Below, one piece after another: positions 983 to 4,215 of a DNA stretch of 7,155 nucleotides. Source of the stretch: an uncultured Anaerolineae bacterium (GTDB lineage Bacteria > Chloroflexota > Anaerolineae > Anaerolineales > Villigracilaceae). The first letter of the stretch is position 1. Each line of letters opens with the position of its first letter. Location of the stretch: positions 1-7,155 of the forward strand of contig CAINXK010000295.1 of NCBI GenBank assembly GCA_903854805.1, written 5' to 3'. A model generated the notes under the pieces. That model did no database searches. It was not told the DNA's origin and saw only the letters and a program-made list of their open reading frames with translations. A program made the translations under genes and the position numbers.

Positions 983-987
983 AGGAG
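983..987 (+). promoter_or_regulatory. Shine-Dalgarno site that fixes the selenoprotein start
   Basis: AGGAG lies 7 bases before the ATG at 995. The in-frame GTG at 1049, which begins the first TGA-free frame, has no ribosome site in front of it (ACCGGGCC). This is direct evidence that translation begins upstream of the in-frame UGA. Confidence 0.85.
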
Positions 988-994
988 TCAGATT

Positions 995-1234
995 ATGTTA
1001 AAAATTGAGGTAACTTACTGCGCAGTTTGACACTACACTGACCGGGCCGTGAGCCTGGCAAATGAACTGCTGAAAGCGTTTGAAGCTGATATCGAGACCT
1101 TTACCCTGATCCCATCAGATGGTGGTCGTTTTGAAGTGACTGTAAACGCAACCCTGATCTACTCAAAGCTCAAGACCAACCGGCATGCTGCACCCGGTGA
1201 GGTGCTTGGTCTTGTAAAAAAAATCATCCCTTAG
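995..1234 (+). CDS. SelW/Rdx-family selenoprotein (in-frame UGA = Sec12)
   Basis: Starting at ATG 995 behind a good ribosome site, the frame reads MLKIEVTYCAV, then TGA (1028-1030), then continues open to TAG at 1234, giving 79 residues if UGA is read as selenocysteine. The result carries the Rdx (SelW/SelT/SelH) active site CxxU at C9-A10-V11-U12, right after the first beta strand. Next come a helix (RAVSLANELLKAF, 17-29), the family strand pair with GGRFEVTVN (43-51), and a C-terminal helix (GEVLGLVKKII). The length matches SelW-type proteins. Related bacterial proteins usually have CxxC, and Cys-to-Sec exchange at the second position is the known pattern. A SECIS-like hairpin follows the UGA. 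These proteins are thioredoxin-fold oxidoreductases of poorly defined substrate, probably cytoplasmic. trpS starts 9 bases later, so the two are co-transcribed. The alternative, a broken CxxC gene, is less likely because the rest is intact. Confidence 0.88.
1039..1060 (+). promoter_or_regulatory. Bacterial SECIS-like hairpin after the UGA
   Basis: CCGGGC (1042-1047) pairs with GCCTGG (1053-1058), six pairs with one G-U, closing a 5-base loop CGTGA. TG (1039-1040) pairs with CA (1059-1060) below a bulged A1041. Seventeen bases separate the UGA from the loop, and the loop carries G at its second position followed by U. This agrees with the known bacterial SECIS form: a short stem with a G in the first two loop positions, about 16-37 bases after the UGA, bound by SelB. 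Confidence 0.75.
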
Positions 1235-1243
1235 CGAGGTAGA

Positions 1244-2233
1244 ATGGCAAAGAAAGGCCGTGTTTTTTCAGGCGCCCGCCCCACAGGACGCCAACATCTG
1301 GGCAATTATCTCGGTGCGATTAAGAATTATGTCGCCCTGCAAGCAGACTATGAATGTGTTTACTGCATTGTAGATGTGCATGCGCTCACCACCATTGAAA
1401 CCACCCGCGACCTGGTGCCCAATACTTACGACATGGCCATCGATTGGCTGGCAGCTGGCATTCGCCCGGAAGATTCGATCGTTTTCGTTCAGAGCCATGT
1501 GCCACAGGTGATGGAACTGCACACATATCTTTCGATGGTAACTCCCTGGGGTAAGTTGACCGATCTGCCTACATTTAAAGAAAAAGTCAGACAGCAGGAA
1601 AGCAATGTGAATTATGGTCTGGTGGGCTACCCGGTATTGATGACTGCCGATATCGTGCTGTATAAAACCGACACGGTACCGGTGGGTGTTGACCAGGCTC
1701 CGCATATTGAATTTGCCCGCGAAACAGTGCGTTCTTTCAATTATCGTTACGGTACCAACGTGCTCCGAGAACCGCAGATGAAGAACACCGAGGTCCCCAA
1801 GGTCCTGGGCATTGATGGCGTCCAGAAGATGGGCAAGAGTCTCAACAATCATATCGAGCTGGCCAGCACACCCGATGAAACCCGCCTGCGTGTCATGCAG
1901 ATGGTCACAGACCCGCAGCGCCTCAGGCGCACCGATCCGGGCAACCCGGATATTTGCAATGTATATTCGATGCACAAGATCTTCACACCCACACAAGACC
2001 TGGAAATGATCAACCAGGAATGTCGTCGGGCCGGAATTGGCTGCGTGGATTGCAAGAAACGCTTCGCCGAGAATCTAAATAACAATCTGGCACCATTCCG
2101 CGAGAGGCGCGCCGAAATTGGCAAGAGCCCGGATACAGTCTGGGACGTGCTCCACGATGGAGCCAAACGCGCGCGCGCCATCGCCGAGGAAACCATGGTC
2201 GAAGTGCGCGCCGCCATGCAGCTGCCAAAATAA
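1244..2233 (+). CDS. trpS: Tryptophanyl-tRNA synthetase, iron-sulfur type
   Basis: Class I synthetase charging tRNA-Trp with tryptophan in the cytoplasm; its 329 residues are normal for the family. The HIGH-like motif is HLGNYLG at 18-24 after FSGARPTG, and the KMSKS motif appears as KMGKS at 195-199. The substrate-pocket block YPVLMTADIVLYKTD...PVGVDQ lies at 129-151. Four cysteines, C238, C260, C267 and C270, form C-x21-C-x6-C-x2-C in the anticodon-binding part. A nearly identical pattern (x22 in the first gap, as I recall) holds a [4Fe-4S] cluster in the Thermotoga enzyme, so this one probably carries a cluster. ATG 1244 follows GAGGT (1236-1240) at rather close spacing, 9 bases after the selenoprotein stop. 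It is co-transcribed with that gene and probably with dtd. Confidence 0.97.
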   Translation: MAKKGRVFSGARPTGRQHLGNYLGAIKNYVALQADYECVYCIVDVHALTTIETTRDLVPNTYDMAIDWLAAGIRPEDSIVFVQSHVPQVMELHTYLSMVTPWGKLTDLPTFKEKVRQQESNVNYGLVGYPVLMTADIVLYKTDTVPVGVDQAPHIEFARETVRSFNYRYGTNVLREPQMKNTEVPKVLGIDGVQKMGKSLNNHIELASTPDETRLRVMQMVTDPQRLRRTDPGNPDICNVYSMHKIFTPTQDLEMINQECRRAGIGCVDCKKRFAENLNNNLAPFRERRAEIGKSPDTVWDVLHDGAKRARAIAEETMVEVRAAMQLPK

Positions 2234-2297: not shown

Positions 2298-2735
2298 ATG
2301 CGTGCCCTGGTTCAGCGTGTCAAATATGGTAAGGTCAGTGTAGCAGGCAGCACCATCGCCGAGATTGGCACAGGCCTGATGATTCTGTTGGGCGTGGGGC
2401 ACGCCGATAGCGAAGAGCAGGCCGCCTTCCTGGCTGATAAGATCGCCAACCTGCGAATCTTTGAAGACGCCGAAGGCCGCATGAACCTCTCGCTGCTGGA
2501 TGTGGGTGGGGCTGCCATCGTCGTCTCTCAGTTCACCCTGTACGCCAATATGAGCAAAGGCCGCCGGCCATCCTTTACCGAGGCAGCCTTGCCCGAAATT
2601 GCCCGCCCATTGGTAAGTCGTTTTGCAGAATTTCTGGCGGCCCAGGGTGTTGCCACCGGGCAAGGTGTTTTTGGTGCCGATATGCAGGTGGAAATCCACA
2701 ACGACGGCCCCGTGACCATCTGGCTGGAAAAATAA
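2298..2735 (+). CDS. dtd: D-aminoacyl-tRNA deacylase
   Basis: DTD hydrolyses D-amino acids, and also glycine mischarged on tRNA-Ala, off tRNA, so it acts as a proofreading enzyme of translation. The protein has 145 residues, the usual length. It starts MRALVQRV and carries both signature loops: SQFTLY at 77-82 and the Gly-cisPro loop NDGPVTIW at 135-142 (Gly137-Pro138), which reach into each other's active site in the homodimer. KGRRPSF (87-93) is also typical. A ribosome site GGGAG (2285-2289) lies 8 bases before the ATG. It is 64 bases after trpS on the same strand with no clear terminator between, so the two probably share a transcript. Confidence 0.97.
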
Positions 2736-3049: not shown

Positions 3050-3121
3050 TGTAGGATGCAAGTAAGTTTTCGTTGGAAACAGGTAGACGACGGCTCAAAG
3101 CATTGCCTTTGAGCCGTTTTT
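3050..3121 (+). ncRNA. Candidate small RNA or attenuated leader upstream of the cold-shock gene
   Basis: The promoter at 3015-3043 and the terminator at 3090-3121 bracket a transcript of about 70 bases with no reading frame of note. It would fold into a hairpin GTTTTC/GGAAAC (3066-3071 with 3075-3080) followed by the terminator stem. Either it is a free small RNA, or the 5' part of a long leader of the cold-shock gene with termination regulated by read-through. The ends are inferred from the signals only. Confidence 0.45.
3090..3121 (+). terminator. Intrinsic terminator upstream of the cold-shock gene
   Basis: An 11-base perfect stem, ACGGCTCAAAG (3090-3100) with CTTTGAGCCGT (3107-3117), and loop CATTGC are followed by a T-run to 3121. 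It acts on the plus strand only, as there is no A-run before it. It lies 75 bases before the cold-shock start codon, so it either ends a small RNA or attenuates that gene. Confidence 0.85.
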
Positions 3122-3196
3122 GATAAGACCGGCCGAAGACATTACTGCACCACAACTCTCCACCCTTTTTGTTGTTTTGCTCTAAGGAGGCAAAAA

Positions 3197-3406
3197 ATGT
3201 CTGAACGTGTCATCGGTACGGTAAAGTGGTTCAATGGTAGCAAGGGCTACGGTTTCATCTCCCGCGAAGGCGGCCCTGATGTCTTCGTCCACTTCTCCGC
3301 TATCCAAGGCGATGGATTTCGTAACCTTGAAGAAGGCCAGCGCGTAGAATTCACGGTCGAAAAAGGCCCCAAGGGTCTGCAGGCCGCGAACGTCAAGGCC
3401 ATCTAA
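3197..3406 (+). CDS. Cold-shock protein (CspA family)
   Basis: A 69-residue single cold-shock domain that binds single-stranded RNA and DNA, melting RNA structure and often acting as a transcription antiterminator. The RNP1 motif KGYGFIS spans 16-22 and RNP2 DVFVHFS spans 28-34, after the family start GTVKWFN (7-13). The C-terminal strand reads [10 protein letters not shown]. The length is standard. The near-perfect ribosome site AAGGAGG (3184-3190) sits 6 bases before ATG 3197 and suggests high expression. No clear promoter lies between the terminator at 3121 and the start, so transcription may come from 3015-3043 through that terminator. The gene ends 18 bases before a strong terminator shared with the convergent gene on the minus strand. 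Confidence 0.97.
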
Positions 3407-3424
3407 TAGCCTGACTGTACAACC

Positions 3425-3452
3425 AAAACCCCGTCGTGAGACGGGGTTTTTT
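3425..3452. terminator. Bidirectional terminator of csp and the convergent PyrD-like gene
   Basis: AAAACCCCGTC (3425-3435) pairs with GACGGGGTTTT (3440-3450) around a GTGA tetraloop, with the T-run extending to 3452. It stops csp on the plus strand. On the minus strand the same stem ends in TTTT and follows directly on the TAA of the convergent gene (3451-3453). Confidence 0.92.
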
Positions 3453-4215
3453 ATTTCCACAAAAGTGTATCGAGCTGCACCGCCAGCGCGCCACAGTCCA
3501 GCATGGCCGCCGCCTGTTCCTGGCTATAGACGCCCACCCCACCAATCACCGGCAGACCCAGGCGCGTAAGGCTGTGCAGCAGACCGAGCGCCTGGGGGAA
3601 CAGCGCCGGACCATATAAGCGGCCATTGATCAATGCGCCTGCTCCAGACTGATCCCTGCCCATCAAAGAGCCGCGTGGTGCTGCAAAGCTCAGTGCAGCC
3701 GCGCCATTCTGGATGACCCGCGGCCCCAGGCTTAACAACTGTTCAAACGGCAGGTTCGCGATCAACGGCAGCTCACCCAGCGACATTTCCAGGGTCCGCA
3801 GGATAATATCTGCCGCCAACTGCGGGGCAAAACCCAATTCGATAGCGGCAATATTATCCAGCCCTTCCAGGCCGCGCACCATGCGCGCAGTCTCATCCGG
3901 AAGGTCGGCCATGAGATGAACGATAACCGGCTGCGAAGCAACCGCCCAGCGGCGCGCATACTTCTTTAGCGCACCCGAAAACCCCGGGTTGGGCAGCCCG
4001 GTATGTAAAAGCAACCCACCAGGATATTCAATCATTTCCGGAAGACTGGCAACCCGCCGCGCGCGCAGACTGAGCGGATTGGTCACAAAGGCGCCCAAAT
4101 CGTCCCAGCTGCCGGCCGGAAATGTATTCAGCGCCGCGCGGACATCCGGGGCGAATCCCAGCATCCCGGCAGCGTTCATCAATGGCTTGCGAAAGATCAG
4201 GTCATTTTTAAACAT
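3451..4215 (-). CDS. Dihydroorotate-dehydrogenase-like TIM-barrel protein, orotate site not conserved
   Basis: The 254-residue protein follows the class 1 PyrD plan. It begins with IFRKPLMNAAG (7-17, FMN-side strand), then GAFVTNPLSLRARR (41-54), GLPNPG (73-78), a GPALFPQAL segment (202-210) and the C-terminal phosphate-site region IGGVGVYSQEQAAAMLDCGALAVQ (224-247), where FMN binds. It is shorter than typical PyrD (about 300). The active-site NxSCPN loop is replaced by IELGFAP (125-131), without the catalytic Cys/Ser or the Asn residues. The flavin-contacting Lys after the second strand is Asn46, and the later KL motif reads ANLP (153-156). It therefore probably keeps an FMN-barrel fold but not dihydroorotate oxidation. 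ATG 4215 is two codons after an in-frame TAG and lacks a clear ribosome site. It lies 60 bases after the gene at 4276-4818. Confidence 0.75.
   Translation of the reverse strand: MFKNDLIFRKPLMNAAGMLGFAPDVRAALNTFPAGSWDDLGAFVTNPLSLRARRVASLPEMIEYPGGLLLHTGLPNPGFSGALKKYARRWAVASQPVIVHLMADLPDETARMVRGLEGLDNIAAIELGFAPQLAADIILRTLEMSLGELPLIANLPFEQLLSLGPRVIQNGAAALSFAAPRGSLMGRDQSGAGALINGRLYGPALFPQALGLLHSLTRLGLPVIGGVGVYSQEQAAAMLDCGALAVQLDTLLWK

Follow-up and report, generated by a model that had tools for sequence, protein, structure and literature searches.

A probable SelW-like selenoprotein gene with an in-frame UGA beside trpS and dtd in an Anaerolineae bacterium

The selW-like gene and its product

The stretch of DNA analyzed here (the window) comprises positions 1 to 7,155 of contig CAINXK010000295.1 (GenBank assembly GCA_903854805.1), which derives from an uncultured Anaerolineae bacterium. 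It harbors a short gene of the Rdx family, related to selW and followed by trpS and dtd (Table 1), in which an in-frame UGA is very probably read as selenocysteine (Sec, U) at residue 12 on the evidence of the sequence comparisons below. The gene almost certainly encodes a bacterial SelW-like selenoprotein of Anaerolineae-like Chloroflexota. Its frame, 995–1231, yields 79 residues and is complete only when TGA 1028–1030 is taken as U.

Table 1. Coordinates of the selW-like gene, its signals, and the genes that follow it in the window.
Feature	Position	Strand	Details
Shine-Dalgarno-like AGGAG	983..987	+	7 nt upstream of ATG 995; sequence
selW-like (Rdx family) gene, 79 codons including one in-frame UGA	995..1234	+	stop TAG 1232-1234
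CxxU redox motif, codons C-A-V-U	1019..1030	+	Cys9 1019-1021, Sec12 UGA 1028-1030
Predicted bacterial SECIS (selenocysteine insertion sequence) hairpin, form A	1042..1058	+	stem 1042-1047/1053-1058, loop CGTGA 1048-1052
trpS, tryptophanyl-tRNA synthetase	1244..2233	+	TIGR00233, 282.7 bits vs 176.75
dtd, D-aminoacyl-tRNA deacylase	2298..2735	+	TIGR00256, 168.8 bits vs 101.5; next in conserved order

The 79-residue protein matches Pfam Rdx (PF10262) at 4.1e-20 and 72.2 bits (cut-off 22.6) and TIGR02174 (CXXU_selWTH) at 55.4 bits (cut-off 34.2). The original prediction, made from the DNA letters, had read the same Rdx protein by read-through from ATG 995 behind AGGAG, with an exact CxxU motif at residues 9–12; the frame and the two family matches bear this out, and C9-A-V-U12 is read in frame. 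The predicted structure is a thioredoxin-like SelW fold (predicted local distance difference test score, pLDDT, 96.7) with a strand at residues 2–9 and a helix at residues 15–32, the CxxU motif lying at the end of the first strand.

In the proposed mechanism, translation would begin at ATG 995, and the elongation factor for Sec, SelB, held by the SECIS hairpin at 1042–1058, would deliver Sec at UGA 1028–1030. The product would be a 79-residue protein of the thioredoxin fold in which CxxU extends from the last part of strand 1 into the loop leading to helix 1; a role as a small thiol/selenol oxidoreductase is most likely. We infer Sec insertion in the source organism, as well as the redox activity and a partner for the protein.

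Conservation of the in-frame UGA

Relatives come from two samples. The first, a scan of genome contigs with six peptide patterns, none of which covers the UGA, yielded 49 relatives, in every one of which codon 12 is TGA and codon 9 specifies Cys. The second comprises 298 genomes of the class of genome G018 (locus L018, titled Anaerolineales; the class was taken to be Anaerolineae). Rdx matches occur in 128 of these genomes, with one in-frame TGA in 125 genomes, and 6 matches are devoid of it; sequences were fetched for 82 of the 125 with TGA and for each of the 6 without. Both samples and the window, made unique, give 133 distinct sequences, in which codon 12 is TGA (127), TGT (5), or TGC (1) and Cys9 is invariant (133/133, window included). 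A Sec or Cys codon at position 12, as the original prediction had anticipated for aligned homologues, is thus found throughout. The likely Chloroflexota host that it named also agrees with the nearest relatives, which are titled Anaerolineae or Anaerolineales.

If the UGA were a true stop, the locus would be a pseudogene or would encode only a 61-residue protein from GTG 1049. Protein catalogues are in keeping with such a product: 112 of the 120 proteins listed (301 found) are shorter than 70 residues and start behind the motif, and some of the truncated proteins carry JGI/NCBI names such as selenoprotein W-related or SelT/SelW/SelH family. However, the codons ahead of the UGA are under in-frame purifying selection. 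The ratio of nonsynonymous to synonymous differences (pN/pS) for codons 3–11 is 0.24 over 38 comparisons with relatives of hairpin form A (defined below), and the shifted frames of the same codons give 1.32 (+1) and 0.89 (+2); codons 25–76, after the UGA, give 0.34 with the same 38 relatives. All of these comparisons share the window as partner and are therefore non-independent. Judged by these ratios, the stretch ahead of the TGA has evolved under coding constraint in the selW frame. Moreover, the 61-residue form would leave out strand 1 and the two redox residues of the confidently predicted fold, in line with the loss of the active site that the original prediction expected without read-through, and retention of TGA in 127 of 133 sequences is not what decay would produce. 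A genuine stop at this position is extremely unlikely.

Selenocysteine machinery in relatives

A full-length tRNA-Sec scoring at least 61 bits occurs in 44 of the 49 relatives' genomes. ARAGORN, applied to 46 stretches, calls tRNA-SeC(tca) in 44; the remaining two are contig-end pieces of G017. The RF01852 score was not trusted on its own, because its cut-off is also passed in 5 of 14 control genomes. SelA, SelB, and SelD are over cut-off in 45, 43, and 43 of the 49 genomes, respectively, and all four components are present in 35. In G002 (1.7 Mb), SelB is the only one of the four. Nearly all genome records are metagenome bins and possibly incomplete. The original prediction had tied its reading to selA, selB, selD, and a tRNA-Sec with anticodon TCA in the genome; this stands for most of the 49 relatives, which are what the check covers.

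In the second sample, SelB is over cut-off in 239 of 298 genomes. It accompanies TGA-containing Rdx genes in 119 genomes and is missing beside them in 6; genomes without Rdx divide into 120 with SelB and 50 without, and the 3 genomes with only non-TGA Rdx all lack it (0 with SelB). The association between TGA-Rdx and SelB gives a Fisher p of 7e-9, with the 3 non-TGA genomes counted as lacking TGA-Rdx, over genomes that are related and non-independent and bins that may be incomplete. A profile search for missed Rdx genes raised the matched genomes only from 128 to 129; therefore, poor sensitivity is unlikely to be the cause of the 120 SelB genomes without Rdx.

Sec use in this class extends beyond the SelW-like gene: 120 of the 239 SelB genomes have no Rdx match. 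Two genomes titled chromosome, G019 and G026 (loci L019 and L026), show partial SelB matches covering positions 2–264 and 1–119 of 581, respectively, even though each record is a single chromosome; these could reflect assembly frameshifts or, alternatively, decayed genes.

The same machinery bears on a reading in which UGA encodes Trp in the source organism, or is decoded by a near-cognate tRNA-Trp, and the protein carries CxxW. A trpS neighbor would suit this reading, as would the W at the Sec position in 7 of the 120 catalogue proteins listed (P0002 and P0004–P0009; 301 found). These W proteins, however, look like gene calls made with translation table 4: P0004 shares 94% identity with the product of locus L006, where the codon is TGA, although no comparably close locus was found for the other six. 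In addition, 30 of the 127 TGA-Rdx genes have TGA as their own stop codon, so that UGA is also a stop in these organisms and not simply reassigned, and the only other codons at position 12 among the 133 sequences specify Cys. With tRNA-Sec(TCA) and SelA, SelB, and SelD found in the relatives as well, a Trp at this position is hardly credible.

A SECIS-like hairpin after the UGA

The selenoprotein assignment is further supported by the nucleotides that follow the UGA. In the window, an 11-nt spacer precedes a predicted hairpin, CCGGGC-CGTGA-GCCTGG, of −8.8 kcal/mol. The bacterial SECIS model, as outlined in PMC13188914, calls for a loop of 3–9 nt and an upper stem of 4–16 bp, a G in the first two loop positions, a UGA-to-loop distance of 16–37 nt, and a minimum free energy of at most −7.5 kcal/mol. 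The window hairpin lies within all four constraints, having a 5-nt loop on a 6-bp stem, the loop sequence CGTGA, a distance of 17 nt (1031–1047), and the energy given above. It came from the comparison of relatives; an Rfam scan of the window up to an E of 1 returned no SECIS family.

When the 13 codons after the UGA of the window are redrawn synonymously, an equal or better hairpin arises in 0.83% of 10,000 draws. Across the 127 TGA genes, the mean best hairpin energy is −7.59 kcal/mol, compared with −2.97 for redrawn sequences (sd 0.22, 200 draws). Among the six Cys relatives, four have hairpins of −0.8 kcal/mol or weaker, and that of L141 (−4.2) is unremarkable next to its null mean of −3.5.

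Two overlapping hairpin registers

On the basis of hairpin energies, the 127 TGA genes fall into form A (39), to which the window belongs, and form B (86), with 2 ties; base-pair counting with G-U allowed leaves the two forms inseparable in 38 of 133 sequences, and energies were used instead. The loop begins 17 nt after the UGA in form A and 21 nt after it in form B, whose stem is GCCGTC/GACGGC-like. The two forms overlap on the same codons (RAVSL in the window) and are mutually exclusive, and both are possible at −3 kcal/mol or better in 18 of 127 sequences. A G lies within the first two loop positions in every member of either form (39/39 and 86/86). Two positions pairs of form B, 18/30 and 21/27, which consist entirely of third codon positions, are paired in 86/86 sequences through five and three pair types, respectively, where independence would predict pairing in 72% and 93%. 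Form A is less variable, with joint changes of CG to TA at 12/28 and of GC to AT at 15/25.

On a tree built without the hairpin columns, the A/B label requires 7 changes, compared with a mean of 33.5 for shuffled labels (label A). The tree rests on 72 columns, 60 of its 125 inner branches have support below 80, and well-supported branches force only 1 switch (label A), so that 7 is a tentative count of register switches. Form B also occurs in L042, L045, L046, L048, and L049, which are titled Gemmatimonadetes, Planctomycetota, and Thermomicrobiaceae. This occurrence in loci titled outside Anaerolineae suggests, on an unrooted tree, that form B is older and that form A arose in Anaerolineae.

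SelD, the selenophosphate synthetase of the same genomes, offers an internal comparison. An in-frame TGA is found at 43 of 44 places over the cut-off, the exception (G039) beginning beyond that point, and the U motif is present in all 30 SelD loci inspected. SelD thus resembles the Rdx genes in being a selenoprotein with a SECIS-like hairpin after the UGA. It differs in register: the predicted hairpin loop starts 32–33 nt after the UGA in 29 of 30 loci (L065 is predicted to fold otherwise), compared with the 17 or 21 nt of the Rdx hairpins. The unlike distances in SelD and Rdx imply that one SelB must accept several spacings.

Weighing the assignment

It could be argued that the hairpin arises from constraints on codons and amino acids and is not a SECIS element. 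Form A stems are nearly invariant, so that covariation there is thin; 3 of 127 hairpins are weak (L017, −1.5; L193, −2.4; L104, −3.5 kcal/mol); and 71 of 127 do not individually pass the 5th percentile of their synonymous null, only 56 being at or below it. In contrast, the pooled synonymous redraws keep the amino acids fixed and still leave the natural hairpins more stable, third positions covary in form B, and all 125 sequences assigned to a form carry the loop G, which both registers place near the start of the loop. A mere by-product of coding constraint is very unlikely.

The weak and individually unexceptional hairpins nevertheless weigh against a SelW-like selenoprotein, as do several further observations. 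Only 60 of 127 genes have a 17-nt core hairpin at or below −7.5 kcal/mol; of the six base pairs in form B, the outermost is open in 44 of 86 sequences, and the outermost form A pair, 12/28, is open in 7 of 39. The Cys relative L139, which has no UGA, shows a −7.5 kcal/mol hairpin at the place of the SECIS, where its null averages −3.3; the hairpin may be left over from a switch of Sec to Cys. At the protein level, the cut-off of the narrower NCBIfam equivalog NF041051 (SelTWH_Campy) is missed (75 vs 88 bits). As for the machinery, 14 of the 49 relatives' genomes lack one or more of the four sel components at cut-off or full length, SelB has no cut-off match in 6 of the 125 TGA-Rdx genomes, and the sel genes of the source organism itself are deduced from those of its relatives.

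The trpS–dtd neighborhood

The original prediction described the gene as joined to trpS; the two are adjacent, separated by 9 nt (1235–1243), and not fused. On the same strand, trpS lies at most 300 nt downstream in 49 of 133 loci, namely 34 of 39 with form A, 14 of 86 with form B, 1 of the 2 ties, and 0 of 6 Cys loci. It was not found within 300 nt downstream in the other 84, although a strongly diverged trpS may have been missed where the flank is short. Among L001–L049, trpS is a neighbor in 36 loci, and dtd follows as well in 35 of those 36. The gap between selW and trpS is at most 25 nt in 22 of the 34 form A loci linked to trpS. Gene order and tight spacing support a putative selW–trpS operon. 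A promoter scan of 678–1330 returned three promoter-like sites against 0.8 expected; each is on the minus strand, and none is a promoter for selW or trpS. Three terminator-like consensus matches lie on the plus strand between 1112 and 1261, with 1.0 expected.

In L019, L026, L028, and L030, dtd directly follows selW without trpS (at 59, 54, 40, and 139 nt, respectively), which makes dtd as steady a neighbor as trpS.

An additional role can be imagined, although it is improbable, in which the selW-like gene also serves as a selenium-sensitive leader of the trpS–dtd operon, such that selenium would tune tryptophanyl-tRNA synthetase. Failed Sec insertion at codon 12 would stop the ribosome and leave approximately 200 nt of untranslated RNA before trpS, and expression of trpS–dtd would be lowered via polarity or lost translational coupling. 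The idea draws on E. coli, in which, according to PMC4513850, Sec recoding is partial (30–40%) and selenium-dependent.

Other features of the window

A cspA thermoregulator (RF01766) spans 3089–3454 on the plus strand, at 97.1 bits against a gathering threshold of 78, around a cold-shock protein gene at 3197–3406. On the minus strand, 1–677 contains tRNA-Thr(TGT), tRNA-Tyr(GTA), and tRNA-Thr(GGT), followed by the 5′ part of a gene that we take to be that of EF-Tu, and 3451–4215 encodes a dihydroorotate dehydrogenase-like protein (Pfam DHO_dh, 43 bits) that falls well short of the NCBI PyrD cut-offs (73.8 vs 269). The plus-strand segment 6876–7115 encodes a C-terminal piece of an ATP-binding cassette (ABC) transporter ATPase that ends on TGA. 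Its NCBIfam matches are weak, covering residues 3–77 and reaching the profile ends; no Pfam match and no gene start upstream were seen, and the piece looks like a remnant.

Implications

A Sec protein occurs in 125 of the 298 genomes sampled from a single class of Chloroflexota, and catalogues mostly cut it just after the active site (112 of the 120 proteins listed, as above). It gives SelB in Anaerolineales a task besides formate dehydrogenase. Sec-containing formate dehydrogenases and SelB are described for Anaerolineales in PMC4959059, as are Sec formate dehydrogenases for deep-sea Chloroflexi in PMC5736913. In the account of PMC4959059, Anaerolinea thermophila UNI-1 encodes the Sec elongation factor and has no dehydrogenase annotated with Sec. 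The genus of G002 (L002, titled Anaerolinea thermophila) has TGA-Rdx in 2 of 2 genomes, among which UNI-1 was not identified. The two registers, together with the 18 dual-capable sequences, form a natural series for probing the tolerance of SelB toward the UGA-to-loop distance and the ways in which a recoding signal might shift its place within a gene.

Comparison with known SelW-like proteins

Bacterial SelW-related proteins of solved structure presumably carry Cys where the window protein has Sec. These structures (2fa8, 2p0g, 2obk, 3dex, 2oka, and 2ojl) are 26–34% identical to the window protein, and mouse SelW (2npb) is a further solved relative.

Among the titles and abstract openings of the literature on selenoproteins or Sec in Chloroflexota, none reports a SelW-like gene there, and the literature searched on selenoproteins with trpS, in the titles, abstract openings, and passages covered, contains no report of a trpS neighborhood for SelW-like genes. 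The words Chloroflexi and SelW are absent from the main texts of PMC12013277, PMC9312934, and PMC13188914; neither occurs in the main text of the survey PMC5029168, whose supplementary tables may list such a gene.

SelW-like Sec proteins of bacteria are described in PMC1088965, PMC1794560, and PMC2398784, consistent with the statement of the original prediction that Rdx selenoproteins are known in some bacteria. Its further remark that such a gene is not widely described holds, within the literature searched, for the trpS neighborhood and the phylum; it does not hold for SelW-like Sec proteins as such, which, by these sources, have long been known in bacteria. In the ocean data summarized in PMC2398784, 427 SelW-like sequences have Sec and 56 have Cys. 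According to PMC1794560, Cys homologues of SelW-like proteins are very rare or absent among organisms that use Sec, and Sec is apparently the original state; this predominance fits the 127 TGA and 6 Cys codons observed here.

The present genes share with the known bacterial SelW-like selenoproteins the Rdx domain, the CxxU motif, the excess of Sec over Cys, and a bacterial SECIS just after the UGA. They differ in their occurrence in Chloroflexota, their position beside trpS–dtd, and their two SECIS registers, no literature search having been aimed at the register shift. The SelW-like family is already known, and the gene is ordinary in kind; what makes it interesting is how widely it occurs and how consistently it is truncated in Chloroflexota, together with the pair of SECIS registers.
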